From the IMG/VR virus record IMGVR_UViG_3300005436_000274, positions 1 to 20,627 of that record: 20,627 nucleotides of DNA; one strand, 5' to 3'. Numbering within the stretch: the first letter of the stretch is position 1; each line of letters starts with the position of its first letter. A program made the translations under genes and the position numbers. This document shows, in pieces, positions 5,262 to 20,528 of the stretch. This DNA is from a virus. Below the pieces are notes generated by a model. That model ran no database searches. It saw only the letters and a list, made by a program, of their open reading frames with translations, and was not told the origin of the DNA.

Positions 5262-5420
5262 TTAAAAATGCAAAAACTAAAAGACGTTATAGCCTTGCGG
5301 GAAGCTATAACGTCTTTTAGTTTTTGCTCACCTTGAACGACTAGCCTATTGGAGGTAACAACAGTTTGTCTCACCAGGTGCGAGGGGCTAGAAACGCTAG
5401 TTTTCCAAGCTCTTCCTCTT
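5262..5420 (-). ncRNA. Candidate short leader RNA between promoter and terL terminator
   Basis: Transcription from the promoter at 5456-5427 should start near 5420 and meet the strong hairpin ending at 5271, giving an RNA of about 150-160 nt. The stretch has no ORF with an SD. It can pair CTAGCC with GGCTAG over about 40 bases and forms smaller hairpins (CTAG-CGTTT-CTAG and CAC-CTG-GTG). It is either a separate small RNA or an attenuated terL leader. Confidence 0.4.
5271..5326 (-). terminator. 23-bp hairpin with A/T tracts, terminator-like, in the terL leader
   Basis: A perfect 23-bp inverted repeat (5271-5293 with 5304-5326) has a 10-base loop. Both ends of the stem are A/T tracts, so it would terminate in either direction, and on the minus strand it is followed by CATTTTTAACC. 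It stands between the promoter at 5427-5456 and the terminase ATG. Confidence 0.85.
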
Positions 5421-5475: not shown

Positions 5476-5931
5476 TCAGTGATCTATCAGCCACGTAGGA
5501 ATTTGCAGTTGAGTGACGACGTTGACTAGTAACTCCTCAGAGGCGGCCTTTGGTAAATCGCCATACCGACCTTCGTACAGCGGCATTATCGCAACTCTAG
5601 CATCTGCAAGTCCGGAGACGAACTCTACAAGCGATCGTAGTGCGACCTCGACGTTCTCTAACTTCATCGGGGACTTCCAGTGACCACGAACACCGACGTG
5701 AATGAGATTCGGTGTTGCCTCTACGTTCAAGTAGCACTTGCCGAGCTTCAAGTCATGACGAACACAGGCGTTGTGGTAGGTCAGGAACGTATCTTCGCCT
5801 AGCAGTCGTATGAGGGTATCGTACTTACTAGAGGACTCTTGCATCACTCCGGAGATGTTTGTAAAATGTACCACATGCGTGGACATAAGGAAGGCTTCTT
5901 CGATCGGAAGACGGGCTATCATAGTTGGCAT
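5476..5931 (-). CDS. Divergent macro-domain (ADP-ribose-binding-like) protein
   Basis: 151 residues from ATG 5931; the longer TTG-start form would begin inside a terminator. The order of motifs follows DarG/ADP-ribose-phosphatase-type macro domains. There is an N-terminal 'NISGVM' (25-30) where those proteins have an Asn-x-x-GVMG loop, then 'TYHNACVRHDLKLGKCY', then 'GHWKSPMKLENVEVALRSL' (83-101) matching the usual '(PTK)xHWR-S-x-LE-I-x-x-GL', and 'IMPLYEGRYGDLP' (115-127) in place of 'P-x-GCG-GG-L'. The ADP-ribose-contacting glycines and the catalytic Lys (here Arg82) are changed, so it may bind but not hydrolyse. It could counter host ADP-ribosylation defence. Family assignment is from memory. 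Confidence 0.6.
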   Translation of the reverse strand: MPTMIARLPIEEAFLMSTHVVHFTNISGVMQESSSKYDTLIRLLGEDTFLTYHNACVRHDLKLGKCYLNVEATPNLIHVGVRGHWKSPMKLENVEVALRSLVEFVSGLADARVAIMPLYEGRYGDLPKAASEELLVNVVTQLQIPTWLIDH

Positions 5932-5950
5932 TAAAAGGTCCGCCCTTTGC

Positions 5951-5987
5951 AAAAAGAACCCACATGCGGTATACTACATGTGGGTTC
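5951..5987 (-). terminator. Intrinsic terminator after the 84-residue gene
   Basis: An 11-bp perfect stem (5956-5966 with 5977-5987) with a 10-base loop is followed on the minus strand by TTTTTGC. It lies 19 bases after the stop of the gene at 6007-6261 and 20 bases before the macro-domain ATG. Confidence 0.8.
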
Positions 5988-6006
5988 ATGAACTCGAAGG
6001 CTCGTG

Positions 6007-6261
6007 CTAGCCCCCGACGACTCTTGGAATCAAGATCACAGTATCGTACTCCAACGCGCTTGGGAATTCCATGACACGAACCGTGCCTCGCTCAGCAGAA
6101 ATGCCATACGCAGACCCACTGCGCGCGGCAACCTCAGCGAAGATCTCACGTGCGGCTTTGATGGCCGCTAGCGCCGCGGGATCGTTCGTAGCGACCTTGT
6201 CCGTATCGACAATAGTCACGTCATCTCCACGCTTGGAGAGCTGTCGGAAAGTAACCTTCAT
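6007..6261 (-). CDS. Hypothetical small phage protein
   Basis: 84 residues starting MKVTFRQLSKRGDDV, with an excellent SD (AGGAGG, 9 bases before the ATG). It is predicted as beta strand, then an Ala-rich helix (residues 27-47), then beta strands with 'VRVMEF' and 'DTVILIPRVVGG'. No family recognised. It follows the 200-residue gene closely (18 bases) and is followed by a terminator, so it is the last gene of that unit. Confidence 0.75.
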   Translation of the reverse strand: MKVTFRQLSKRGDDVTIVDTDKVATNDPAALAAIKAAREIFAEVAARSGSAYGISAERGTVRVMEFPSALEYDTVILIPRVVGG

Positions 6262-6279: not shown

Positions 6280-6882
6280 CTATTCCGTGGGGTATTGTCC
6301 GGTACCGATCATGTACTCCAGTAGTGGCCACAAGCAGCCATCTGGAACAGCAGATGATCGATTTTTATTTGCAGTACGCTCTAGTCTTCCCTCATCCCCC
6401 CGAATGAGAAGTAAGAGCCATATTACTCTGTCTGGTTCAGGCAAGCCGTATTCTGAGGCGTCTATGCACCAATATGAGAACTCTCTCGACTTTGGACTCA
6501 AGGCGTATAGTGCACCGTCCCAAATCATGTAGACACGACCCGCTACACGTCGACTGGGTTCGAAGACCACACTATTGCGAGTGTAGAGCTCAAATTCCTG
6601 TGGCGTTAGCAGAGTTTGTAATAAGTTCAGAGCAGTCTGTCTAGCCTCTTCAGCCTCTCGACGTCTAGCGACCCGTTCCTCTTCGCGCTGGCGTTCGACC
6701 ACTGCTATACTAAGTCCTTCTGGATGATCCTCACCCGGCCGGAGCCAACGCAACGTAGCGTAATAGTCTGCTGAGGGAGTATAGATCGTACCCGTGCCGG
6801 CTTGTGTAGTAGCAGTGACGTGCAGTTGGATGTCACCAACCGAGGCGAACTCCCCGTTGTATAGACTAAAATAGGGCGCCAT
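6280..6882 (-). CDS. Hypothetical protein with coiled coil and small alpha/beta domain
   Basis: 200 residues, SD GGAGGT 12 bases before ATG 6882. Residues 60-95 are a highly charged coiled coil (RQREEERVARRREAEEA). Residues 85-172 ('LLQTLLTPQEFELY...GRVYMIWDG...YGLPEPDRVIWLLLLIRGDEGRLERTAN', given here only in fragments) match a small conserved domain I have seen in actinobacterial and phage proteins, where it reads 'LLxExLTPEQ...Y.I..G..G.V...C..P...lP..D..l..kL.l..dE..FL..AN'. Function is unknown. A 6-bp hairpin (6913-6929) lies between tRNA-Ile and the SD. Confidence 0.75.
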   Translation of the reverse strand: MAPYFSLYNGEFASVGDIQLHVTATTQAGTGTIYTPSADYYATLRWLRPGEDHPEGLSIAVVERQREEERVARRREAEEARQTALNLLQTLLTPQEFELYTRNSVVFEPSRRVAGRVYMIWDGALYALSPKSREFSYWCIDASEYGLPEPDRVIWLLLLIRGDEGRLERTANKNRSSAVPDGCLWPLLEYMIGTGQYPTE

Positions 6883-8444: not shown

Positions 8445-8473
8445 ATTATAAGGTAAGTCACGAGGTAAATCAA
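8445..8473 (-). promoter_or_regulatory. Sigma70-type promoter for tRNA-Leu(CAA)/Arg(TCT) unit
   Basis: -35 TTGATT (8473-8468), 17-bp spacer, -10 TATAAT (8450-8445). The -10 sits in the inverted repeat CCTTATAA..TTATAAGG. Confidence 0.85.
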
Positions 8474-8539: not shown

Positions 8540-8621
8540 CGGTAGGGACAGGAGTCGAACCCGCTACTGCTCATCACAGCGACTCTTTTCAGGAGAGCTC
8601 CACACCGTTGTGCTCCCTACC
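8540..8621 (-). tRNA. tRNA-Ser(TGA) with C33
   Basis: 82 nt, class II. Acceptor GGTAGGG/CCCTACC, G73, a variable arm (CTG...CAG), T loop TTCGACT. Anticodon stem GCTCT/AGAGT encloses the loop CCTGAAA, so position 33 is C instead of U. The D arm is short (CACA/TGTG). Confidence 0.8.
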
Positions 8622-8627
8622 CAGTAA

Positions 8628-8719
8628 AGACAGTTAAGCATGTACAATCGATGAACGCGAGACCAACCCTGTTGCGTACAATCAATTAGTAAGACAATGC
8701 GCACCGTACTTAACTGTCT
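8628..8719 (-). repeat. 11-bp hairpin bracketing the spacer between tRNA-Arg(TCG) and tRNA-Ser
   Basis: AGACAGTTAAG (8628-8638) and CTTAACTGTCT (8709-8719) are perfect complements. The arms end 6 bases from the tRNA-Ser 5' end and 3 bases from the tRNA-Arg 3' end. Confidence 0.75.
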
Positions 8720-8722
8720 CGG

Positions 8723-8795
8723 AGGAGCGTATGGGATTCGAACCCATAGAGGCCTGATTCGAACTCAGGTGAGCGATCCGCCGCTCGCACGCTCC
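8723..8795 (-). tRNA. tRNA-Arg(TCG)
   Basis: 73 nt. Acceptor GGAGCGT/ACGCTCC, D stem GAGC/GCTC, anticodon stem CCTGA/TCAGG with loop GTTCGAA, T stem ATGGG/CCCAT, discriminator T. Confidence 0.88.
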
Positions 8796-8798
8796 AGA

Positions 8799-9460: not shown

Positions 9461-9521
9461 CGAGTGCTAGAGGATTCGAACCTCTCTTCACCACTACAGC
9501 TATCTCCCGAGAGAAACACTC
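9461..9521 (-). tRNA. 61-nt tRNA-like gene lacking a normal anticodon or D arm
   Basis: Acceptor GAGTGTT pairs with AGCACTC, and the T arm is canonical (AGAGG-TTCGAAT-CCTCT). Only about 29 nt lie between acceptor and T arm: a TCTC/GAGA hairpin and a D-arm-like TAGCTGTAGTGGTGA. No anticodon arm can be drawn. It is a degenerate tRNA or a tRNA mimic. Confidence 0.5.
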
Positions 9522-9576: not shown

Positions 9577-9647
9577 AGCCGTAGGAGGGACTCGAACCCT
9601 CAACGCAGTTGTTCCTACTGCACCGTACCCCTAAGTCGTCCCACGGC
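9577..9647 (-). tRNA. tRNA-like gene, anticodon uncertain (GAA if standard)
   Basis: 71 nt. Acceptor GCCGTGG/CTACGGC and T arm GAGGG-TTCGAGT-CCCTC are good. Anticodon stem GCAGT/ACTGC is perfect but the loop AGGAACA has G33, the variable loop is 3 nt and the D arm is poor. A normal tRNA-Phe(GAA) exists at 18336-18408, so this copy is probably degenerate or altered. Confidence 0.55.
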
Positions 9648-10372: not shown

Positions 10373-10419
10373 TACAGTTGTAGTAGCAATCCATTGCACG
10401 GTGAACTACTACAACTGTA
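10373..10419 (-). repeat. 14-bp hairpin flush with the 5' end of tRNA-Ser(GCT)
   Basis: TACAGTTGTAGTAG (10373-10386) is the perfect complement of CTACTACAACTGTA (10406-10419), with a small inner CAAT/ATTG pair. One base separates the stem from the first base of the tRNA. Confidence 0.8.
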
Positions 10420-10434
10420 ACAGAATTCGGCAAG

Positions 10435-10550
10435 CTAGCAAAGCAGCGCCCGAACGCGCACGTTAGTTCCTAGGCGCATACACCCTAGAGATCTTACGGT
10501 TTCTCTCCGACTTCGATCTCTATTGAGAACCCCTCACGCCGCTTCGCTAG
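10435..10550 (-). repeat. Nested hairpin filling the spacer after tRNA-Thr
   Basis: Arms 10435-10448 and 10537-10550 pair at 12 of 14 positions and end exactly at the tRNA-Thr 3' end. Inside, AGAGATC (10487-10493) pairs with GATCTCT (10515-10521). No coding sequence is seen here. Confidence 0.6.
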
Positions 10551-10801: not shown

Positions 10802-10830
10802 ATTATAAGGTAAACTTAGAGGATTTTCAA
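10802..10830 (-). promoter_or_regulatory. Sigma70-type promoter for tRNA-Thr unit
   Basis: -35 TTGAAA (10830-10825), 17-bp spacer, -10 TATAAT (10807-10802), immediately after the stop of the gene at 10834. Confidence 0.8.
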
Positions 10831-11158: not shown

Positions 11159-11222
11159 GAAGTCTAGCAAGGTTCGAACTTGCGCTAGCGGTACCACTAG
11201 TGGCCCTGAATGCACTAGACTT
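11159..11222 (-). tRNA. 64-nt tRNA-like RNA with its own promoter
   Basis: Perfect 7-bp acceptor AAGTCTA/TAGACTT and perfect T arm GCAAG-TTCGAAC-CTTGC. Only 32 nt lie between them, containing the self-complementary CCACTAGTGG and GGTACC; no D arm or 7-nt anticodon loop can be drawn. The promoter at 11243-11271 places its 5' end about 14 bases after the transcription start. Confidence 0.5.
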
Positions 11223-11242
11223 CATAATTTCTTTATACTATT

Positions 11243-11271
11243 ATTATAATATAAAGAAATGTGAAAAACAA
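11243..11271 (-). promoter_or_regulatory. Sigma70-type promoter for the 64-nt tRNA-like RNA
   Basis: -35 TTGTTT (11271-11266), 17-bp spacer, -10 TATAAT (11248-11243), in an AT-rich inverted repeat (TTTATA...TATAAA). Confidence 0.75.
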
Positions 11272-12147: not shown

Positions 12148-12169
12148 CCGTGGCACGAAAAAGCCACGG
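12148..12169 (-). repeat. 7-bp hairpin CCGTGGC/GCCACGG
   Basis: Its 5' arm on the minus strand (CCGTGGC) is also the segment that could pair with the 5' acceptor strand at 12302-12308. The 8-base loop is TTTTTCGT. No U-tract follows. Confidence 0.5.
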
Positions 12170-12267
12170 GCCGGAATTGCACCGGCATCTCAACGGTCTC
12201 GACTTCAGCGTTTAGATTTGGCGTTCGGCAGCGAAATGCTGAGTTTGGGTTGAGAGTCTCAGCTTGA
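12170..12267 (-). other. Structured non-coding stretch downstream of the split tRNA
   Basis: It contains CTGAG/CTCAG and CTCAAC/GTTGAG pairs, a CAGC/GCTG pair, and a GCCGG-TGCAATT-CCGGC stem-loop resembling a T arm with an abnormal loop. If joined to the 5' half at 12308 it would make a 147-nt tRNA-like RNA with a 6/7 acceptor match. No ORF with an SD is present. Confidence 0.4.
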
Positions 12268-12356
12268 GTGGATTGCGCATGCGCCTCTGCCAGTTGGGCT
12301 ACTGCGGCATGGGAGCCGCAGGTAGGACTCGAACCTACACTTTTAACGCTTACCCG
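12268..12356 (-). tRNA. Candidate circularly permuted tRNA (3' half before 5' half)
   Basis: In transcript order: a 3' half (T arm GTAGG-TTCGAGT-CCTAC, then acceptor strand CTGCGGC, 12315-12321), six bases (TCCCAT, 12309-12314), then a 5' half (acceptor strand GCCGCAG, 12302-12308, then TA and the D arm GCCC-AACTGGCAG-AGGC). The two acceptor strands are perfect complements. No other 5' half lies upstream of the 3' half. The anticodon arm cannot be fixed: GCGTT in the 3' half can pair with GGCGC or CATGC of the 5' half. Confidence 0.5.
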
Positions 12357-12357
12357 T

Positions 12358-12382
12358 CAGACTAAAATTGAATTTGAGTCTG
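12358..12382 (-). repeat. Hairpin upstream of the permuted tRNA 3' half
   Basis: CAGACT (12358-12363) pairs with AGTCTG (12377-12382), with AAAT/ATTT inside. It occupies the place where a D arm of an ordinary tRNA would have to be. Confidence 0.6.
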
Positions 12383-12390
12383 AAACCCGG

Positions 12391-12462
12391 GGTGCCTAAC
12401 GGGGTTCGAACCCGTAATGGGAGAGCCACAATCTCCAGTGTTACCATTACACTATAGACACC
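12391..12462 (-). tRNA. tRNA-His(GTG)
   Basis: 72 nt including G-1 paired with C73, the histidine hallmark. Acceptor GTGTCTA/TAGGCAC, D stem GTG/CAC, anticodon stem GGAGA/TCTCC with loop TTGTGGC, T arm ACGGG-TTCGAAC-CCCGT. Confidence 0.95.
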
Positions 12463-12475
12463 ATAGCAAAGCAAA

Positions 12476-12531
12476 CTAGCGAGCGGCAGTGGAGGGTAAA
12501 GTATGGAAAAACTCTTGCTGTCGCTCCCTAG
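12476..12531 (-). repeat. Spacer hairpin between tRNA-Gln(TTG) and tRNA-His
   Basis: CTAGCGAGCGGCAG (12476-12489) pairs with CTGTCGCTCCCTAG (12518-12531) at 12 of 14 positions. It ends 4 bases from the tRNA-Gln 3' end. Confidence 0.65.
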
Positions 12532-12535
12532 TCGG

Positions 12536-12608
12536 CACGACCTTCAGGATTCGAACCCGAATAGTTTGAGTCAAAGTCAAACGTCCTACCTAGTTAGACG
12601 AAGGTCGT
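12536..12608 (-). tRNA. tRNA-Gln(TTG)
   Basis: 73 nt. Acceptor ACGACCT/AGGTCGT, G73, D stem GTCT/GGAC, anticodon stem TTTGA/TCAAA with loop CTTTGAC, T arm TCGGG-TTCGAAT-CCTGA. Confidence 0.9.
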
Positions 12609-12612
12609 AGGA

Positions 12613-12657
12613 AAGACCGTTACCACACCCTCTGTGCCGACGCGCAGTAACCGTCTT
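12613..12657 (-). repeat. Spacer hairpin between the anticodon-less tRNA and tRNA-Gln
   Basis: AAGACCGTTAC (12613-12623) pairs with GTAACCGTCTT (12647-12657), 10 of 11 positions. It fills the spacer, leaving 4 bases at one end and 1 at the other. Confidence 0.7.
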
Positions 12658-12658
12658 A

Positions 12659-12718
12659 TGGAGATGGTCGGATTCGAACCGACGACCTCTAGCGCTCTTC
12701 CAACTGAGCTACATCCCC
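12659..12718 (-). tRNA. 60-nt tRNA lacking its anticodon arm
   Basis: Acceptor GGGGATG/CATCTCC, D arm GCTC-AGTTGGAA-GAGC, T arm GTCGG-TTCGAAT-CCGAC and A73 are all perfect. The 17-nt anticodon arm plus variable loop is reduced to CTAGAGGTC. It looks like a precise deletion in a normal tRNA, possibly between the two sides of a CTAGA/TCTAG stem, with the T- and D-domains kept intact. Confidence 0.7.
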
Positions 12719-12721
12719 GAG

Positions 12722-12766
12722 TGCGTAGAGTACCAAAAATCGGACCCGGGTTTGATACCCTACGCA
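12722..12766 (-). repeat. Spacer hairpin upstream of the anticodon-less tRNA
   Basis: TGCGTAGAGTA (12722-12732) pairs with TACCCTACGCA (12756-12766) at 10 of 11 positions, starting 4 bases from the tRNA 5' end. Confidence 0.65.
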
Positions 12767-12779
12767 TGTGACACACTGT

Positions 12780-12877
12780 CTGGCTTCTCCGAGCGATCCC
12801 ACTAGTGAGCGAAAGGACAAACTCTCACTAGCCGTGGCAGGCGGGATTTGCTAAAGCGATAAAGTGTCCGAAGCCAG
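12780..12877 (-). repeat. Nested spacer hairpins next to tRNA-Val
   Basis: CTGGCTTC (12780-12787) pairs with GAAGCCAG (12870-12877). Inside, CTAGTGAG (12802-12809) pairs with CTCACTAG (12824-12831). The outer arm ends 1 base from the tRNA-Val 3' end. No gene is seen. Confidence 0.7.
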
Positions 12878-12878
12878 G

Positions 12879-12951
12879 TAGCGACAACTGGGCTCGAACC
12901 AGTGGCCTCCTCTTTGTAGGAGAGGCGCTCTTCCAACTGAGCTATGCCGCT
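12879..12951 (-). tRNA. tRNA-Val(TAC) with C33
   Basis: 73 nt. Acceptor AGCGGCA/TGTCGCT, A73, D arm GCTC-AGTTGGAA-GAGC, T arm ACTGG-TTCGAGC-CCAGT. Anticodon stem CCTCT/AGAGG with loop CCTACAA, so position 33 is C. A shifted pairing with loop CTACAAA would need a mismatch and an unusual frame. Confidence 0.82.
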
Positions 12952-12955
12952 ACGC

Positions 12956-12987
12956 AACGTGCAGCAGCCTCAAAAACAGTGCACGTT
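12956..12987 (-). repeat. Spacer hairpin upstream of tRNA-Val
   Basis: AACGTGCA (12956-12963) pairs with TGCACGTT (12980-12987), 4 bases from the tRNA-Val 5' end. Confidence 0.65.
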
Positions 12988-13028
12988 ACGCTCTCTGTTC
13001 CCCTTTAAGGAGCCATCCAAAATGGGGA

Positions 13029-13101
13029 TGGAAGTGAAGAGATTCGAACTCTCACTGACTAGTTCTTAAATCTAGTGCCTCTGCCGTTGGGCTACACTTC
13101 C
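13029..13101 (-). tRNA. tRNA-Leu(TAA), class I body
   Basis: 73 nt. Acceptor GGAAGTG/CACTTCC, A73, anticodon stem CTAG/CTAG plus one mismatch, loop TTTAAGA, 5-nt variable loop TCAGT, T arm GAGAG-TTCGAAT-CTCTT. Confidence 0.85.
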
Positions 13102-13102
13102 A

Positions 13103-13160
13103 CGCTAGCGTGTTGAGAAAGGGCTTGGAGCCAAGTGTCAAAGCTCCACACGTTCTAGCG
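13103..13160 (-). repeat. Nested spacer hairpin between tRNA-Met and tRNA-Leu(TAA)
   Basis: CGCTAG/CTAGCG (13103-13108 with 13155-13160), GTGT/ACAC inside, then GGAGC/GCTCC (13127-13131 with 13143-13147). It starts 1 base from the tRNA-Leu 5' end. Confidence 0.65.
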
Positions 13161-13177
13161 TTCGGCCAATTGCCGAG

Positions 13178-13249
13178 TTGCGACAGACGGATTCGGACCG
13201 TCAACTTCCATCTTATGAAGATGGCGCTCTACCATTGAGCTATATCGCA
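13178..13249 (-). tRNA. tRNA-Met(CAT), elongator type (or Ile2)
   Basis: 72 nt. Acceptor TGCGATA/TGTCGCA fully paired (so not initiator), anticodon stem CCATC/GATGG with loop TTCATAA, A73. T loop is TCCGAAT, with C55 instead of the usual T. Confidence 0.88.
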
Positions 13250-13255
13250 AAGTGA

Positions 13256-13319
13256 GAGGTAGTACGTCAGTGGAACTACCTCATTCCGGAAAACCTTATG
13301 CGCGCACCGAGAGGTGTGC
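13256..13319 (-). repeat. Two spacer hairpins between tRNA-Ile(GAT) and tRNA-Met
   Basis: GAGGTAGT/ACTACCTC (13256-13263 with 13275-13282) and GCGCACC/GGTGTGC with a GAGA loop (13302-13308 with 13313-13319). Confidence 0.65.
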
Positions 13320-13321
13320 GG

Positions 13322-13395
13322 TGGAGACAGCTAGACTCGAACTAACAACCTCCGCCTTATCAGAGCGGCGCTCAGACCAATTGAGCTATGTCTCC
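13322..13395 (-). tRNA. tRNA-Ile(GAT)
   Basis: 74 nt. Acceptor GGAGACA/TGTCTCC, A73, D arm GCTC-AATTGGTCT-GAGC, anticodon stem CCGCT/GGCGG with loop CTGATAA, T arm GTTAG-TTCGAGT-CTAGC. Confidence 0.95.
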
Positions 13396-13453
13396 ACGAT
13401 GTAGACGCGCGAGCCTACATCGTTTGGTCCCACTAGTGCTCCACAGTGGGGAC
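13396..13453 (-). repeat. Two spacer hairpins between tRNA-Asn and tRNA-Ile(GAT)
   Basis: ACGATGTAG/CTACATCGT (13396-13404 with 13415-13423) directly abuts the tRNA-Ile 5' end. GTCCCACT (13427-13434) pairs with AGTGGGGAC (13445-13453), which runs into the discriminator base of tRNA-Asn. Confidence 0.75.
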
Positions 13454-13524
13454 TCTCTAGACTAGATTCGAACTAGTAACCACTCGATTAACAGTCGAGA
13501 GCTCTACCATTGAGCTACTAGAGA
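13453..13524 (-). tRNA. tRNA-Asn(GTT)
   Basis: 72 nt. Acceptor TCTCTAG/CTAGAGA, G73, D stem GCTC/GAGC, anticodon stem CTCGA/TCGAG with loop CTGTTAA, T arm ACTAG-TTCGAAT-CTAGT. Confidence 0.95.
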
Positions 13525-13528
13525 AGGC

Positions 13529-13597
13529 AGCGCCAAGTCGCTTCTGCCGTCGACTTAGCGCTTGAGCAGTAAGCGAAAGGGCCGTAACTCTTACTGC
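13529..13597 (-). repeat. Two spacer hairpins between tRNA-Gln(CTG) and tRNA-Asn
   Basis: AGCGCCAAGTCG (13529-13540) pairs with CGACTTAGCGCT (13551-13562), 11 of 12. GCAGTAAG (13566-13573) pairs with CTTACTGC (13590-13597). Confidence 0.75.
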
Positions 13598-13600
13598 CGG

Positions 13601-13671
13601 CTCCCGATGATGGATTCGAACCACCGTTCTTGGAGTCAGGGTCCAATGTGATACCATTACACTAATCGGGA
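13601..13671 (-). tRNA. tRNA-Gln(CTG) with C33
   Basis: 71 nt. Acceptor TCCCGAT/ATCGGGA, G73, D stem GTG/CAC, T arm GGTGG-TTCGAAT-CCATC. Anticodon stem TTGGA/TCCAA with loop CCCTGAC: anticodon CTG, position 33 is C. The other glutamine tRNA (12536) has CTTTGAC. Confidence 0.88.
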
Positions 13672-13673
13672 AA

Positions 13674-13747
13674 GTGAAGAGGCTAACTTTTTCCACTGTA
13701 AGTAGGATTTTGTAAGCCTCTAACTTATTAGCAACGACACTCTTCAC
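13674..13747 (-). repeat. Spacer hairpin with two alternative pairings, next to tRNA-Gln(CTG)
   Basis: GTGAAGAG (13674-13681) pairs with CTCTTCAC (13740-13747). The overlapping AGAGGCT (13678-13684) instead pairs with AGCCTCT (13715-13721). The two stems share four bases and cannot both form. Confidence 0.65.
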
Positions 13748-13756
13748 AGAGTGCGG

Positions 13757-13829
13757 CGACTCATACGGGATTTGAACCCGTGATCTCTAGCGTGACAGGC
13801 TAGCGCGATAACCCCTTCGCTAATGAGCC
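13757..13829 (-). tRNA. tRNA-Asp(GTC)
   Basis: 73 nt. Acceptor GGCTCAT/ATGAGTC, G73, D stem GCGA/TCGC, anticodon stem CTAGC/GCTAG with loop CTGTCAC, T arm ACGGG-TTCAAAT-CCCGT. Confidence 0.95.
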
Positions 13830-13832
13830 TCA

Positions 13833-13873
13833 CAGTTTTCTCGCTCCACTTAGCCTTGGCGCGCTTAAAACTG
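13833..13873 (-). repeat. Spacer hairpin upstream of tRNA-Asp
   Basis: CAGTTTT (13833-13839) pairs with AAAACTG (13867-13873), 3 bases from the tRNA-Asp 5' end. Confidence 0.55.
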
Positions 13874-13918
13874 GTAAACTAGCATCTTTGCAGACCACTT
13901 ACGCGAAAGCGCGATCAA

Positions 13919-13990
13919 TAGCCCGTACCAGACTCGAACTGGTGTCTTGACATTGAGGGTGTCAAATGCTAGCCGCTACACCAACGGGCC
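13919..13990 (-). tRNA. tRNA-Glu(CTC) with C33
   Basis: 72 nt. Acceptor GGCCCGT/ACGGGCT, A73, T arm ACCAG-TTCGAGT-CTGGT. Anticodon stem TGACA/TGTCA with loop CCCTCAA. It is clearly a sister of the gene at 14203-14274, whose loop is CTTTCAA; bases 33 and 34 both changed T to C. Confidence 0.88.
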
Positions 13991-14202
13991 TCGCCGGATC
14001 AAGGCTACTCACCTCTATGCACGCTGTGACTTTCACCCTCACACTGCAAGCGGAATCGTACTGTAGCGTACATCACCGACCGCGAATTTGCAACATGTTT
14101 TAATCCGACTAGCTAGTTGAGTGACCATTCTAGTCTGGACACTCCTGATTCACTTTCACTAGATGCGTCAGCGAATCCTTTGGACTGTACTAGCACAGTC
14201 AA
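13991..14202 (-). other. 212-nt non-coding spacer with hairpins
   Basis: Between the two Glu tRNAs. Pairs seen: CGGAT/ATCCG across about 100 bases, TGCAA+GCGG with CCGC+TTGCA (14045-14092), GACTAG/CTAGTC, and GACTGT/ACAGTC (14183-14200) just before the tRNA-Glu(TTC) 3' end. No ORF with an SD and no tRNA arm seen. Confidence 0.5.
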
Positions 14203-14274
14203 TAGCGCGTACGAGACTCGAACTCGTGTCTTGACATTGAAAGTGTCAAATGCTAACCTTTACACCAACGCGCC
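14203..14274 (-). tRNA. tRNA-Glu(TTC)
   Basis: 72 nt. Acceptor GGCGCGT/ACGCGCT, A73, anticodon stem TGACA/TGTCA with loop CTTTCAA, T arm ACGAG-TTCGAGT-CTCGT. Confidence 0.94.
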
Positions 14275-14309
14275 AGATATGCCACTACGACATATACCCC
14301 CTCAAACAT

Positions 14310-14540
14310 TCATTCCCGCATAGCCATCTCCACAAAGCCACTCCTTGCAAGTTCCGTACTGATATGTACTACCTGTTTGATAGGCTTACGTAGTAGATGC
14401 GAAATGCGATCCACACTTCGCTCGCCATCAGATAAAATAAACACTTGCCTGTGTGCTCGGTCCCACTGTGGTGGCCACTGCGGATGGTACACCATTAGCT
14501 TCTTACCGTTCACCGTGCGACGAGAGACTAGCACCGTCAT
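14310..14540 (-). CDS. Small winged-helix-like protein inside the tRNA array
   Basis: 76 residues starting MTVLVSRRTVNGKKLM. ATG 14540 has GAGGAG 7 bases upstream; the 81-residue GTG form lacks one. A basic N-terminal half ('YHPQWPPQWDRAHRQ') is followed by 'VFILSDGERSVDRISHLLRKPIKQVV' and 'LARSGFVEM'. This is the 'L.DG.RT...I..LL..P...V...L..L...G.V' pattern of small winged-helix domains. It could bind DNA or RNA. Its place amid tRNAs invites a role in their expression, but nothing shows this directly. Confidence 0.7.
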   Translation of the reverse strand: MTVLVSRRTVNGKKLMVYHPQWPPQWDRAHRQVFILSDGERSVDRISHLLRKPIKQVVHISTELARSGFVEMAMRE

Positions 14541-14594
14541 TGCATTTCTCCTCACACCCTACTGCACTTACTACTGAGAAGCGACTCTCAAGAA

Positions 14595-14667
14595 AGCCCT
14601 GAACGAGACTCGAACTCGTACCACAACGTTGGCAACGTTGCATGCTAGCCTATTGCACCACCAAGGC
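14595..14667 (-). tRNA. tRNA-Gly(GCC)
   Basis: 73 nt. Acceptor GCCTTGG/TCAGGGC, U73, anticodon stem CAACG/CGTTG with loop TTGCCAA, T arm ACGAG-TTCGAGT-CTCGT. Confidence 0.93.
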
Positions 14668-14672
14668 ATGGT

Positions 14673-14745
14673 CACGACAGTACGAGTTGCTACAGCTGTT
14701 CACTAACTCAAGTATGTAAGCTGTCGCCGTTAGAGTACTGTCGTG
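14673..14745 (-). repeat. Nested 11-bp spacer hairpin between tRNA-fMet and tRNA-Gly(GCC)
   Basis: CACGACAGTAC (14673-14683) is the perfect complement of GTACTGTCGTG (14735-14745). Inside, ACAGCT pairs with AGCTGT. It fills almost the whole spacer. Confidence 0.8.
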
Positions 14746-14751
14746 GCACTA

Positions 14752-14825
14752 TTCAGCGGGAAGGATTCGAACCTCCGACCTTCGGGTTATGAGCCCGACG
14801 AGCTAACCACTGCTACCACCGCTGG
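14752..14825 (-). tRNA. Initiator tRNA-fMet(CAT)
   Basis: 74 nt. C1 faces A72 (acceptor CCAGCGG/CCGCTGA), and the anticodon stem TCGGG/CCCGA carries the three consecutive G-C pairs diagnostic of initiators. The loop is CTCATAA. The stretch from the D stem through the variable loop is close to the E. coli initiator. Confidence 0.95.
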
Positions 14826-15095
14826 ATGGAACTCCTGTGTGTACGTTTCGGCAGAGAAGCATACCGTACCTACTCCGTACTCTCGCAGCTAAGTTAGACG
14901 CAGCCCCACAGGTAGGGCGCTTGGCTAAGTGAATCTCACCCTTATGCTTCTCGATCGCTAGGGATCCCACTTATTGGATGCCGCATCTTGCTTGCGACCG
15001 CTGAGCCTGAGGCGTGGTCGTGTGCACTCAAGAAGCTATCTGTGCTTCAGGCGAGGGTCACTTCCAGAGTGTGCTGGTGGCACGGATTCAGGCCA
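14826..15095 (-). other. 270-nt non-coding region with long-range pairing
   Basis: GAGAAGCATA (14854-14863) pairs with TATGCTTCTC (14943-14952). CCTGA/TCAGG and GAAGC/GCTTC pairs and a GTGC/GCAC hairpin lie further right. No tRNA arms, no SD-preceded ORF. It is far longer than the other spacers in the array and may hold a separate structured RNA. Confidence 0.4.
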
Positions 15096-15169
15096 TTCGG
15101 GAGAGAGGATTTGAACCTCTGATCTTCGATTTATGAGACCGATGGGTACGACCTCTACCCTACTCCCGG
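15096..15169 (-). tRNA. Second CAT tRNA with C1-A72 mismatch
   Basis: 74 nt. Acceptor CCGGGAG/CTCCCGA (C1 faces A72), D arm GGGT-AGAGGTCGT-ACCC, anticodon stem TCGGT/ATCGA with loop CTCATAA, T arm AGAGG-TTCAAAT-CCTCT. It lacks the three G-C pairs of an initiator, so it may be a variant initiator, an elongator Met or a lysidine-type Ile tRNA. Confidence 0.82.
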
Positions 15170-15174
15170 GCGTT

Positions 15175-15234
15175 GTGACCTTCGGCTAAGAAATGCAACG
15201 GTAGGCAACTACTCTATCACAAACCGAAGGCCAC
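15175..15234 (-). repeat. Spacer hairpin between tRNA-Trp and the CAT tRNA
   Basis: GTGACCTTCGG (15175-15185) pairs with CCGAAGGCCAC (15224-15234), 10 of 11 positions, ending 1 base from the tRNA-Trp 3' end. Confidence 0.7.
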
Positions 15235-15235
15235 A

Positions 15236-15309
15236 CACCAGTGCAGAGACTCGAACTCTGAACCTACCGTTTTGGAGACGGTTGCTGCTACCAATTGAGC
15301 TACACTGAT
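15236..15309 (-). tRNA. tRNA-Trp(CCA)
   Basis: 74 nt. Acceptor ATCAGTG/CACTGGT, G73, anticodon stem ACCGT/ACGGT with loop CTCCAAA, T arm CAGAG-TTCGAGT-CTCTG. Confidence 0.95.
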
Positions 15310-15344
15310 ATACCCGATCGTGTACGAGTCGTTAGAGCAAAAGC

Positions 15345-15416
15345 AACTTTTGTCAGGAGTCGAACCTGAAATCGATTGATCCGAAGTCAATTGCCTTACC
15401 ATTAGGCAACGAAAGT
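15345..15416 (-). tRNA. tRNA-Arg(TCG), second copy
   Basis: 72 nt. Acceptor ACTTTCG/CAAAAGT (one C-A mismatch), D stem GCCT/AGGC, anticodon stem ATTGA/TCAAT with loop CTTCGGA, T arm TCAGG-TTCGACT-CCTGA, discriminator T. Its body is unlike the copy at 8723-8795. Confidence 0.8.
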
Positions 15417-15454
15417 TTGTACGCTCTGAACTATTAGAGTACACTCTCGGATAG

Positions 15455-15527
15455 AGCGCCTAGAGAGATTCGAACTCTCGTCTCCACGTTGGAAGCGTGG
15501 CACACTATACCGCTGTGTTATAGACGC
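15455..15527 (-). tRNA. tRNA-Gly(TCC)
   Basis: 73 nt. Acceptor GCGTCTA/TAGGCGC, U73, anticodon stem CCACG/CGTGG with loop CTTCCAA, T arm GAGAG-TTCGAAT-CTCTC. First gene of the big array, about 20 bases from the promoter start point. Confidence 0.94.
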
Positions 15528-15553: not shown

Positions 15554-15583
15554 ATTATAAGATAAAAGATTTGGTGAAATCAA
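15554..15583 (-). promoter_or_regulatory. Sigma70-type promoter of the main tRNA array
   Basis: -35 TTGATT (15583-15578), 18-bp spacer, -10 TATAAT (15559-15554) inside the perfect palindrome TTATAATTATAA. The spacer is identical to that of the promoter at 18289-18318, a recent duplicate. Confidence 0.85.
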
Positions 15584-17120: not shown

Positions 17121-17144
17121 AGCTACGTCGCGTTCGACGTAGCT
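17121..17144 (-). terminator. Leader hairpin with U-tract before the membrane-protein gene
   Basis: AGCTACGTCG (17121-17130) pairs with CGACGTAGCT (17135-17144) over a 4-base loop. On the minus strand CAATTTTTT follows, then the SD and ATG 17092. It stands between promoter and gene. Confidence 0.75.
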
Positions 17145-17172: not shown

Positions 17173-17201
17173 ATTATAAGATGTTTCACTCCGGAAATCA
17201 A
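17173..17201 (-). promoter_or_regulatory. Sigma70-type promoter for the membrane-protein gene
   Basis: -35 TTGATT (17201-17196), 17-bp spacer, -10 TATAAT (17178-17173), just after the winged-helix gene. Confidence 0.85.
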
Positions 17202-17727: not shown

Positions 17728-17752
17728 GCTAGGACGACGTAATCGTCCTAGC
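17728..17752 (-). terminator. Leader hairpin before the winged-helix gene
   Basis: GCTAGGACGA (17728-17737) pairs with TCGTCCTAGC (17743-17752), 5-base loop. On the minus strand TCTTTTGC follows, then the SD. It directly abuts the tandem repeat. Confidence 0.65.
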
Positions 17753-17815
17753 GTCTTAAGTGTCTTAAGTGTCTTAAGTGTCTTAAGTGTCTTAAGTGTC
17801 TTAAGTGTCTTAAGT
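17753..17815 (-). repeat. Seven perfect 9-bp tandem repeats (ACTTAAGAC)
   Basis: The unit GTCTTAAGT (plus strand) occurs seven times without a mismatch. Each contains the palindrome CTTAAG. The first repeat begins at the discriminator base of tRNA-Leu(TAG) and the last ends at the leader hairpin of the winged-helix gene. The 9-bp spacing is close to one DNA turn, as in operators of OmpR-type proteins. Confidence 0.9.
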
Positions 17816-17888
17816 GTCGACGGAGAGACTCGAACTCTCAACGACTAGACTCTAAATCTAGCACCTCTGCCAATTGGGTTACGTCGAC
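17815..17888 (-). tRNA. tRNA-Leu(TAG), class I body
   Basis: 74 nt. Acceptor GTCGACG/CGTCGAC, A73, D arm ACCC-AATTGGCAGA-GGT, anticodon stem CTAGA/TCTAG with loop TTTAGAG, 5-nt variable loop TCGTT, T arm GAGAG-TTCGAGT-CTCTC. Confidence 0.88.
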
Positions 17889-17892
17889 TCGA

Positions 17893-17963
17893 AGGAGACC
17901 TATGCAGGACTCGAACCTACTTACTATTGAGAGTATGAATCTCAACGTCCACCCGTAGTCTCC
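17893..17963 (-). tRNA. tRNA-like gene with CAT loop and no D arm
   Basis: 71 nt. Acceptor GGAGACT/GGTCTCC, anticodon stem TTGAGA/TCTCAA with loop TTCATAC (CAT), T arm GTAGG-TTCGAGT-CCTGC. Only about 12 nt stand in place of the D arm, and three extra bases (ATA) separate T stem and acceptor. Confidence 0.5.
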
Positions 17964-18222: not shown

Positions 18223-18288
18223 TTGCAAGAGCACGCAGACACGCACTCTTCGCTATTCGGTTACAAGAATCTTTCAACTCTTATAATT

Positions 18289-18318
18289 ATTATAAGATAA
18301 AAGATTTGGTGAAATCAA
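18289..18318 (-). promoter_or_regulatory. Sigma70-type promoter for tRNA-Pro/Leu(TAG)/winged-helix unit
   Basis: -35 TTGATT (18318-18313), 18-bp spacer, -10 TATAAT (18294-18289), in the AT-rich inverted repeat TTATAATTATTATAA. Same spacer sequence as the promoter at 15554-15583. Confidence 0.85.
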
Positions 18319-18335
18319 TTGGACCTTGATCGGAA

Positions 18336-18482: not shown

Positions 18483-18511
18483 ATTATAAGGTAGAAAACT
18501 CGGCAAATCAA
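18483..18511 (-). promoter_or_regulatory. Sigma70-type promoter for tRNA-Phe
   Basis: -35 TTGATT (18511-18506), 17-bp spacer, -10 TATAAT (18488-18483), inside the inverted repeat CCTTATA..TATAAGG, 3 bases after the thyX stop. Confidence 0.85.
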
Positions 18512-18514
18512 GGC

Positions 18515-19426
18515 CTAAACCTTTGCGAAAGCCGTCTCGACCGCCTGTGTACCATCTCCTAGCTCGACGATCTTGTAGTCAGAGAACAACAACGGCTCAG
18601 CATAGTACAAGCACAGGAAGATGCGAAACGCTACCTCACGGATCTCAACCTCCGCATGCGCACTAGCACGAGACTCAATAATGTGTCTCCAAGCGCGGAC
18701 GTTGCCAGTTGCAACTATCGGAGACTCAGTCTCGTTTGGCAAGATCGATCGCGCGGCTTGCTGTACCTTCTTACGCAAGTCCGTTCGGTCGACAGCGCTC
18801 AGTAGCATATCTCCTTCCTGTTGCAATTGCAGCATCACTTCGCTAATGGCTTTATGCTCTTGCGCAATACGATCGATGCGATCACAGAAAAGCATATGTA
18901 GTTTCGGATGACTAATATACTCTGGTCGCTCTACGAAGCGCAATACACTACCCGCGACGTAGCGTTGTGACTGCTGAGAGAACGCCATTCCCGCTCGATG
19001 CCGCACTAACTCGTGCGTAACCGACCTAGAAAGCCCATACAGCAACAGACTAAAGTTCGCGTGCTCTAACACAGAGCCGTGGCCACTGTCTTTGATATTA
19101 TCGAGATACGCACTAGCCTGTGCATTTGTCGTTCGGCGTCGACCAAAGCTCATATAGCACAGTTGACCTGCCGCCTTGCAGATCTGCGCTGCGCCAGATA
19201 GTAACGTCGGGTCTTGCAAGTACTCATCATATCGGAGACTCGGTGAGTAGTTGCTCAGAAAGTGATCGACACCTAGTATGTTCGTGCTTGGTACAGACAG
19301 CACGACAACACCGGGCTCAACTAGGTACGGCGTACCATAAGCTGTTGCAAACGCCTCAGCCTCGATACTAGGAAAGCCTCCATTCGTACTGCCACCGAGT
19401 AGCTCGAACCTTTCGTTAATGTCCAC
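18515..19426 (-). CDS. thyX: Flavin-dependent thymidylate synthase
   Basis: 303 residues from GTG 19426, which has GAGGAGGT 4 bases upstream; the TTG at 19456 would include this SD as coding. ThyX makes dTMP from dUMP using FAD, NADPH and methylene-tetrahydrofolate. Motifs: 'GHGSVLEH' (115-122), 'SVTHELVRHR' ending at the RHR signature (142-144), then eight residues and 'SQRY' (153-156), 'LPNETES' (230-236), and the substrate-binding 'NVRAWRHIIESR...EIREVA'. The RHR-X8-S spacing is one residue longer than the common X7 form. The first 65 residues extend the usual N-terminus. It is 10 bases downstream of the lipoprotein gene. Confidence 0.95.
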   Translation of the reverse strand: MDINERFELLGGSTNGGFPSIEAEAFATAYGTPYLVEPGVVVLSVPSTNILGVDHFLSNYSPSLRYDEYLQDPTLLSGAAQICKAAGQLCYMSFGRRRTTNAQASAYLDNIKDSGHGSVLEHANFSLLLYGLSRSVTHELVRHRAGMAFSQQSQRYVAGSVLRFVERPEYISHPKLHMLFCDRIDRIAQEHKAISEVMLQLQQEGDMLLSAVDRTDLRKKVQQAARSILPNETESPIVATGNVRAWRHIIESRASAHAEVEIREVAFRIFLCLYYAEPLLFSDYKIVELGDGTQAVETAFAKV

Positions 19427-19436
19427 GAATACCTCC

Positions 19437-20528
19437 TCATGAATATCGTGTAGCAATCGTTGCGACAGCGACGCTACCCTTTAGATCGAACGCTCCGGTA
19501 TCTTGCCATCCCCACAAGAAGACGCCAGCCACGTGCGTGTCCGCTCGCAACTCCGCAATTGCGACATCGAACAGCCACGACTGCTCTTGTGGATCTTTAC
19601 GCCCACTATTACTAGACTGCCAAGTAGCGTATCCCGCGAACTCATCGTCACGAAAGCCCATCTCACCGATAATGATCTCCCGACCGAGTTGCCGGGATAG
19701 ACTGTCTAACTGAGGTTTGACGATTGCCAACCACTGAGAGGTGATATCCGCCATTGACAGCTTACGCTTATAGCTCGTTAACGGCCAATATGCATCTACA
19801 CCGATAGTCGTCAGCGACTTGTTACGCATCCAATCCTGCAAGACTACGCCAGAGGCCGACCAATTCATATCGTAAACCAACTGTCGACTGTAGACGTGCG
19901 AGACCGCAGAGATCAGTTGATTCCACAAGTTCGGGCTTGCGAACGTTTGTAGCCATTGCTCCTCTACTCCGAAGGCTAACTGATCTACCATAGAGACTTC
20001 CGCCGCCTGCGTATACGGTGCAATCGCCTTCCAGTAGTTTGCAAACCACGCCATCTCATCGAGCAGATTCGAAAACCGAATCGATCCAGCCCAACCACCG
20101 GGTTGCTTAACGGACATCAAGAACGTAACGAAGACTTTCAGGCCGAGACTGTGCGCGTACTCAACGCCTGCGGTCAGTGCAGCCGGCGTTGGAGCATTGG
20201 ATTCCGCCTGCATACTAGTCGAAGAGTTCGACATCTGTGTAAACAGCACTGGCATCTCGATCCAACACGAGTTCGTTTGAGCCTTTAGGGTCGCAACCTC
20301 AGAGCGCCACACGGTATCATTCGCTCCGTAACCTGAAGAGTTCCACTGCGGATACGCAATACCCGTCTCCCAAGGTATCGTACAGAACGTTGGCTGTGGA
20401 GAAATGGTTACGGAACGCGTCACCGGTGGCGACGGTACGGGCATGACCTGTATAGGCTTTCCACAGCCGACGGCAACAACCACAAGTACTAGCAACAACC
20501 ACAAGCCTCTACTTCCAGTTTGTGACAA
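19437..20528 (-). CDS. GH113-like glycoside hydrolase lipoprotein
   Basis: 363 residues from TTG 20528, chosen because AGGAGG stands 6 bases before it and it gives a textbook lipoprotein signal: short basic start, 'LWLLLVLVVVAVGC', lipobox Cys at residue 22. The alternative ATG 20594 adds 22 residues and has no SD. After a Pro-rich linker, a TIM-barrel domain follows the plan of GH113 (beta-mannanase-like) enzymes: 'GIAYPQWN', 'TNSCWIEMPVLFTQ', 'VFVTFLMSV', 'QLAFGVEEQW' with acid/base E189/E190, 'IGVDAYWP', 'IIIGEMGF' with nucleophile E289, and 'GVFLWGWQDTG'. It would be exported by the host and anchored in the membrane. The substrate is unknown. Confidence 0.75.
   Translation of the reverse strand: MSQTGSRGLWLLLVLVVVAVGCGKPIQVMPVPSPPVTRSVTISPQPTFCTIPWETGIAYPQWNSSGYGANDTVWRSEVATLKAQTNSCWIEMPVLFTQMSNSSTSMQAESNAPTPAALTAGVEYAHSLGLKVFVTFLMSVKQPGGWAGSIRFSNLLDEMAWFANYWKAIAPYTQAAEVSMVDQLAFGVEEQWLQTFASPNLWNQLISAVSHVYSRQLVYDMNWSASGVVLQDWMRNKSLTTIGVDAYWPLTSYKRKLSMADITSQWLAIVKPQLDSLSRQLGREIIIGEMGFRDDEFAGYATWQSSNSGRKDPQEQSWLFDVAIAELRADTHVAGVFLWGWQDTGAFDLKGSVAVATIATRYS

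Follow-up and report, generated by a model that had tools for sequence, protein, structure and literature searches.

Self-pairing of spacers beside the tRNAs in a T5-like phage tRNA region

Spacers between the tRNA genes of a phage tRNA region are self-paired beyond chance, above all right beside the tRNAs. The window (the whole 20,627-nt stretch analysed, IMG/VR record IMGVR_UViG_3300005436_000274) belongs to the genome of a tailed phage whose tRNA region is T5-like. Here about 30 tRNAs are accompanied by small ORFs, several unusual tRNA-like modules, and strong sigma70-type promoters, with everything on the minus strand. The spacers in its operons are long, mostly 50-210 nt. Promoters precede the tRNA blocks, and the 30-mer found before the main tRNA array recurs identically at 18289-18318. 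The features are listed in Table 1.

Table 1. Main tRNA array, its promoter, and tRNA spacers in the window, with folding z-scores against shuffled sequences
Positions	Strand	Feature	Score or remark
12389-15527	-	Main tRNA array: 17 ARAGORN tRNAs and tRNA-like 12659-12718, structured spacers, one small ORF	
15554-15583	-	Sigma70-type promoter TTGATT-18-TATAAT, before main tRNA array	0 matches expected in shuffles
12462-12533	-	Spacer, interrupted hairpin beside tRNA-Gln	z -2.5
12609-12658	-	Spacer, one hairpin of ~15 bp with interruptions	z -3.1
12659-12718	-	60-nt tRNA-Ala-like module without anticodon arm	Rfam tRNA 54 bits; missed by ARAGORN
12719-12876	-	158-nt spacer: 98-nt closed multi-branched module and 16-bp hairpin	z -2.2
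12952-13025	-	Spacer with hairpins; ~12 bp hairpin beside tRNA-Cys	z -2.4
13103-13176	-	Spacer, two hairpins	z -3.3
13250-13319	-	Spacer, hairpins at each tRNA end	z -2.2
13396-13449	-	Spacer, two hairpins (11 bp, ~8 bp)	z -3.8
13526-13598	-	Spacer, two hairpins (9 and 12 bp)	z -2.5
13672-13754	-	Spacer, two hairpins	z -3.4
13830-13918	-	Spacer folding no better than chance; includes claimed 13833-13873 hairpin	z +0.8
13991-14201	-	211-nt spacer, several hairpins	z -2.1
14668-14750	-	Spacer closed by 11-bp perfect stem	z -4.1
15170-15234	-	Spacer closed by 13-bp stem	z -4.6
8622-8721	-	Spacer closed by 13-14-bp stem, between Ser-like 8541-8621 and tRNA-like 8722-8796	z -2.8
10373-10549	-	177-nt spacer; 15-bp hairpin (10373-10419) abuts tRNA-Ser 5' end	z -3.8
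18223-18335	-	Spacer: promoter palindrome and ~12 bp hairpin beside tRNA-Pro	z -3.6

An earlier note on this DNA had described inverted repeats in the spacers beside the tRNA ends, and had proposed folding against shuffled controls as a check. The repeats are indeed there, adjoining the tRNA ends on the transcribed (minus) strand. The window has 31 perfect inverted repeats (arms of at least 9, loops of at most 80), while its shuffles have 2-5. For the folding, all 18 tRNA-tRNA spacers of 30-220 nt within the window were compared with 500 shuffles each, in which dinucleotide composition was preserved. Fifteen are more stable than their shuffles (p < 0.05), with a mean z of -2.55 for the 18 and a Fisher combined p of 2.5e-16. 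In the array 12462-15453 alone, 12 of 15 spacers pass (combined p 1.5e-12). The three that do not exceed their shuffles are 13830-13918, where a hairpin had been listed, and the short spacers 15418-15453 and 15311-15342 (36 and 32 nt). These short ones, the first two downstream of the array's promoter, are unpaired and without structure.

The shape of the spacers is less regular than the single end-to-end hairpin described by the earlier note. A typical spacer has two hairpins, or one hairpin and filler, and closure by a single end-to-end stem is found in 29% of spacers vs 25% in control viral arrays. Each of 13256-13319, 13396-13453, and 13529-13597, entered as one hairpin, holds two separate ones. 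The entries 12722-12766 and 12780-12877 are two modules of one spacer, which starts right beside the tRNA-like 12659-12718. The distance of 0-7 bases given for the arms from the tRNA ends is roughly right, but on the leader side of 12462-12533, at its His end, the gap reaches about 12 nt. The longest uninterrupted stem per spacer is 3-16 bp (6-16 bp in most), and helices with bulges reach at most 19.

The pairing is concentrated at the spacer ends. In the first 15 nt of the spacers the pairing probability is 0.69 vs 0.52 (p 0.002), and in the last 15 nt it is 0.69 vs 0.51 (p 0.004). Unlike these stretches beside the tRNAs, the middle of the spacers has no pairing excess. Leader-side pairing in the window is also higher than in 260 control spacers (p 0.0003); in the control arrays the leader-side excess is near zero. 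Spacers with pairing that is above chance and concentrated beside the tRNA ends are tentatively assigned here to "tRNA-flank insulating hairpins", a functional class proposed in this analysis.

We propose, with a probability of about 0.5, that spacer pairing mainly insulates the tRNAs from invasion by leader and trailer RNA, and that the tRNA ends are generated by RNase P together with a 3' endonuclease. Insulation against tRNA misfolding, one of the uses suggested before, is supported by computation. When tRNA-spacer-tRNA units are folded, cross pairing is 6.7 with real and 14.7 with shuffled spacers (p 0.0006), a reduction that a self-paired spacer brings about almost by construction. The native tRNA pair probability is 0.58 with real vs 0.47 with shuffled spacers (p 0.008). 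Insulation is just as good with random sequences that form the same stems (0.562 vs 0.584 for the native ones, p 0.6), which rules out sequence-specific insulation and implies that pairing, not sequence, matters. With no spacer at all, the native tRNA pair probability is higher still (0.676). Therefore, insulation would explain the pairing of a long spacer but not its length.

Under this proposal, long spacers in tRNA operons would be kept self-paired, above all over the 15 nt next to each tRNA, and the pairing would prevent leaders and trailers from invading nearby tRNAs while the RNA is being transcribed. The cuts at the tRNA ends would be made by host RNase P and an RNase Z-type 3' endonuclease. 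The RNase Z type is suggested because most of the tRNAs are without an encoded CCA. These cuts would free the spacers in the form of hairpin RNAs that may be long-lived, like the stable RNAs of T5. A single precursor transcript, the enzymes acting on it, and the cause of selection are all inferred.

Escherichia phage T5 (AY543070) is the closest known case. Its tRNA region also has many same-strand tRNAs mixed with promoters, tiny ORFs, and tRNA-like modules. As in the window, tRNAs are interspersed with structured non-tRNA RNAs that fold similarly, several of them with closed ends. The resemblance is one of organisation only, since stems differ even among the window modules. In T5, many neighbouring tRNAs are 5-7 nt apart and the stable RNAs are fewer and longer, whereas in the main array of the window a paired spacer of about 50-90 nt lies between nearly every tRNA pair. 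The tRNA cluster of T4 (NC_000866) likewise combines tRNAs with stable non-tRNA RNAs (species 1 and 2), but there most tRNAs follow one another at 0-10 nt and hairpin spacers are absent.

The stable RNAs annotated inside the T5 and T4 clusters have unknown functions. Those annotated in T5 are RNAI, RNAIII, RNAIV, RNA1, RNA2, RNA2H, and RNA3, and several have closed ends with z of -2.6 to -3.0. Similar closed modules of 73-98 nt are found in the window at 8628-8719, 12780-12877, and 14673-14745. The spacers might thus encode stable small RNAs that have a function of their own, as annotated in those phages. This is rather unlikely, as neither stems nor loops have related sequences when modules or phages are compared, Rfam scans (gathering and E-value) gave no non-tRNA family over the cut-off, and many spacers are merely two short hairpins.

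Close relatives that might show compensatory changes were sought by scanning viral and genome contigs for the terminase and viral contigs for ThyX. These scans gave only a 99.94% identical contig and a divergent phage with a 69% identical terminase. The near-identical contig has no differences from the window within hairpins. The divergent relative (contigs L003/L004) also has chains of hairpins between its tRNAs, several with z of -3 to -7, in unrelated sequence. This supports, together with the equal performance of random stems, the earlier suggestion that the pairing rather than the sequence is conserved. Hairpins are not exclusive to tRNA spacers: the relative's protein-gene intergenic regions are also rich in them. 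The implied novelty of a tRNA-specific feature is weakened by these regions, by other viral tRNA arrays, and by the T5 stable RNAs. Note that with strong hairpins between protein genes in the same lineage, a general cause could yield both.

It is reported that template switching can make and repair perfect hairpins (PMC8794818). Perfect palindromes in untranslated stretches could be made and kept by this DNA-level process during replication, with no selection at the RNA level. The abundance of hairpins between the relative's protein genes agrees with this, as does the absence of strand bias in the folding z-scores, the hairpins being about equally stable on both strands. However, the pairing excess lies beside the tRNAs in tRNA spacers, while in the protein-gene intergenic regions (relative G001) it lies in the middle, with none significant at the ends. 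Moreover, G-U pairs in stems are commoner on the transcribed strand (41/371 vs 19/346, p 0.01), which is unexpected from a DNA process and expected if selection acts on RNA. An origin by template switching is quite unlikely for these reasons.

In T7, as is proposed for the window, hairpins punctuate a polycistronic phage transcript, and cleavage of the T7 intergenic hairpins by RNase III is established. The T7 sites, which separate protein genes, are longer and have been proven to be substrates, whereas the hairpins of the window are predicted. The earlier note had named RNase III and RNase E signals as possible uses, and the spacer hairpins could be processing signals at which RNase III, or another endonuclease attracted to them, separates the tRNAs. 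A helix of at least 11 pairs, small bulges allowed, is found in 79% of the lineage's spacers vs 51% of shuffles. Most uninterrupted stems, however, are under the optimum for double cleavage, and none of the spacers reaches the regular stem of at least about 20 bp that marks T7-type sites. No RNase III, CCA enzyme, or RNase E/G was found encoded by the relatives (the RNase III domain was sought in G001 and G002), though a host RNase III could act. RNase P and RNase Z can cut tRNA ends without hairpins. Processing by RNase III thus seems improbable. An RNase E signal is disfavoured as well, because direct entry of RNase E on tRNA precursors requires adjacent single-stranded segments (PMC3985628) and these flanks are the paired part here. 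It is very improbable that the hairpins are transcription terminators or attenuators: T-runs occur at some intergenic hairpins of the window (e.g., 17121-17144 and 17728-17752), but no listed tRNA spacer has a G+C stem followed directly by a T-run except a weak one at 15231-15246, mostly within tRNA-Trp, and terminators in all the spacers would shut the array off.

Descriptions of phage tRNA arrays usually list which tRNAs are encoded and ignore the RNA between them. This RNA has measurable structure here and, to a lesser degree, in viral tRNA arrays that are unrelated. In the literature collection searched, no account of hairpin spacers in phage tRNA arrays turned up. A more far-reaching reading, less likely than not, is an unrecognised rule for arrays with long spacers, in which the RNA flanking the tRNAs would be paired by hairpins of arbitrary sequence, maturation would be RNase E-independent, and tRNAs would alternate with hairpin modules along the precursor. 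If maturation depends on the pairing, the pairing would give a testable rule for how misfolding is avoided in long polycistronic tRNA precursors, and it might shed light on the T5 stable RNAs, which are so far unexplained.

The control arrays came from 94 sampled IMG/VR contigs (spacers of 30-160 nt). Their spacers also fold beyond shuffles, with mean z of -1.74 and -1.79 and an average of about -1.75 over 287 spacers. A z below -2 is found in 37-40% of spacers in these arrays vs 75% in the window. The window ranks near the top within this general tendency of phage tRNA arrays. In contigs L143, L145, L135, and L096 spacer folding is as strong as in the window. L135, L145, and L148 were set aside as proof because of promoter overlap and because kinship with the window is not shown; this separate phage group also has hairpin spacers, some of them overlapping TTGACA-type promoters.

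An earlier note had proposed that nearly every spacer between consecutive tRNAs carries a hairpin, and the claimed stems are indeed present when the spacers it listed are folded on the transcribed strand. Each tRNA-tRNA spacer of 30-220 nt in the window was compared with 500 dinucleotide-preserving shuffles (folding energies at 37°C; all p-values are per single test). Fifteen of the 18 spacers fold better than chance at p < 0.05 (mean z = -2.55, Fisher combined p = 2.5e-16), as do 12 of 15 in the main array alone (combined p 1.5e-12). Sliding windows over the coding regions show no folding excess (mean z near 0). The exceptions are spacers 13830-13918, 15311-15342, and 15418-15453, which do not fold better than their shuffles at p < 0.05. 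The further proposal, that the arms close each spacer end to end, is not borne out: a single stem does so in only 29% of window spacers vs. 25% of controls. The commonest form is two hairpins, or a single hairpin plus filler.

The clearest tRNA-specific signal found is the position of the pairing. Base-pair probabilities show an excess confined to the 15 nt adjoining the tRNAs on both sides (0.69 vs. 0.52, p 0.002, and 0.69 vs. 0.51, p 0.004), where tRNA ends are predictor boundaries with a possible error of up to about 3 nt on the 3' side; the middle shows no excess. Between protein genes of the relative G001, it is the middle of the intergenic region that has the excess (p 2e-5), and the ends have none that is significant. 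Of the 36 contigs that have three or more spacers, the window ranks fourth in flank pairing.

Folded spacers are also found in other viruses. The 287 spacers of 30-160 nt from 94 other viral tRNA-array contigs have a mean z of -1.74 (40% below -2); these contigs were picked by T-loop patterns within a restricted range of spacing, and some of their spacers may conceal undetected tRNAs or promoters. A repeat run gave -1.79 (37% below -2), more folded than protein-gene intergenics of the control contigs (-1.36, p 0.001; gene calls here and in G001 are simple ORF calls). Compared with these controls, spacers of the window and G001 are more strongly folded (p 0.006), chiefly on the leader side (p 0.0003). 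G001 protein-gene intergenics are themselves hairpin-rich (mean z -2.04, 42% below -2), many of the hairpins having no T-run, and lineage tRNA spacers do not differ significantly from lineage protein intergenics in z (p 0.16). Since lineage intergenics and control arrays are also hairpin-rich, the window is a strong case but not a unique one; noncoding RNA rich in hairpins characterises the lineage and is also a tendency that viral tRNA arrays show in general. Hairpins adjoin tRNAs in arrays of another viral group too (L135, L145, L148, L134, L063, and L143), where some are palindromic TTGACA-N17-TATAAT-type promoters inside spacers.

That pairing rather than sequence is conserved agrees with what is seen in the divergent relative L003/L004 (contigs of 177 and 106 kb; terminase 69% identical). 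Its tRNA cluster is at the equivalent place, upstream of the terminase gene, and the spacers there are chains of strong hairpins unrelated in sequence to those of the window (e.g., spacer 6333-6408, z -6.7; the 405-nt spacer 5750-6154, with several long hairpins). Contig L002 is the same phage as the window (99.94% over 11.5 kb), and none of the seven differing positions is inside a listed hairpin. Scanning viral and genome contigs for terminase, and viral contigs for ThyX, brought up no relatives intermediate between these.

Partition-function folds of tRNA-spacer-tRNA units suggest that spacers would insulate tRNAs through pairing as such, the stem sequence being arbitrary. Expected tRNA-spacer pairs number 6.7 with real and 14.7 with shuffled spacers (p 0.0006), and native tRNA pairing is 0.58 vs. 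0.47 (p 0.008). Random stems of the same structure give a comparable 0.56 (p 0.6). In these folds insulation does not explain spacer length, because removing the spacer altogether gives 0.68. The transcribed strand has more G-U pairs in its stems (41/371 vs. 19/346, p 0.01), which favours RNA selection over template switching (PMC8794818) or another process acting purely on DNA.

RNase E enters tRNA precursors directly via adjacent single-stranded segments (PMC3985628), and the predicted hairpins would remove such segments. Stable leader structure near the cleavage site affects the rate of RNase P (PMC10731613), which may give importance to the few leader nucleotides that usually stay unpaired. 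Most stems are shorter than RNase III typically needs for double cleavage. RNase III, CCA-adding enzyme, and RNase E/G are not recognisable in the relatives' records; ORF115 of PP885687.1 (Tunturi_4) is annotated 'RNase E', and that entire record has no Pfam RNase_E_G match.

The closest known system is T5. The annotation of its tRNA region lists promoters, tiny ORFs, tRNA-like RNAs, and function-unknown stable RNAs between tRNAs. Folding is significant for T5 RNAIII, RNA2H, RNAIV, and RNA3, and long closing stems are present in three of the four. T4 has two function-unknown stable RNAs, yet its tRNAs are mostly 0-10 nt apart. Given these precedents, the window is best regarded as a variant of T5-type organisation in which the hairpin spacers are unusually regular; the likeness is one of organisation. 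Several tRNA-like modules of the window (all -) that have T arms, with D/anticodon arms degenerate or missing or with long inserts (9578-9647, 17886-17962, 9462-9521, 12308-12390, and 12148-12312), bring to mind the tRNA-like stable RNAs of T5. Another, of ~63 nt (11160-11222, -), has acceptor and T arms without normal D/anticodon arms and immediately follows a promoter-like TATAAT (about 11240-11267).

Features of the 20.6-kb IMG/VR virus fragment
Feature	Position	Strand	Remark
Portal	552-2312	-	
Terminase large subunit	3880-5247	-	
Sigma70-type promoter	8445-8473	-	
Sigma70-type promoter	10802-10830	-	
60-nt tRNA-Ala-like sequence	12659-12718	-	Acceptor, D, T arms intact; anticodon arm absent; Rfam tRNA 54 bits
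Sigma70-type promoter	15554-15583	-	TTGATTTCACCAAATCTTTTATCTTATAAT
Sigma70-type promoter	17173-17201	-	
Sigma70-type promoter	18289-18318	-	TTGATTTCACCAAATCTTTTATCTTATAAT
Sigma70-type promoter	18483-18511	-	
ThyX	18515-19456	-	

The minus strand carries all 27 tRNAs that ARAGORN finds, and Rfam adds the tRNA-Ala-like sequence; Ser/Sec-like tRNAs 8541-8621 and 8723-8796 are detected solely at a relaxed threshold. The promoters have the form TTGATT/TTGAAA-17/18-TATAAT, and several immediately precede tRNA blocks. The 30-bp promoter-like sequence TTGATTTCACCAAATCTTTTATCTTATAAT, identical at two sites, belongs to a family of TTGATT-N17/18-TATAAT sites, which often overlap with an AT palindrome. 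Many tRNA 3' ends encode the discriminator and CC without the final A of CCA (e.g., 12534, 12877, 13320, 13599, and 13755, -), and tRNA-Cys (12877-12951, -) has anticodon ACA, with A at position 34, unusual in bacteria. An 81-aa ORF within the array (14310-14555, -), between tRNA-Gly and tRNA-Glu, is perhaps winged-helix-like by eye. Just upstream of terL is a perfect 24-bp inverted repeat with a 10-nt loop followed by TTTTT (5269-5327, -), which has a 22-bp counterpart in L003 (9012-9062). Adjoining tRNA-Leu(tag), a short repeat in tandem copies (about 17755-17815, -) reads as LKT repeats in the frame of a 209-aa ORF.
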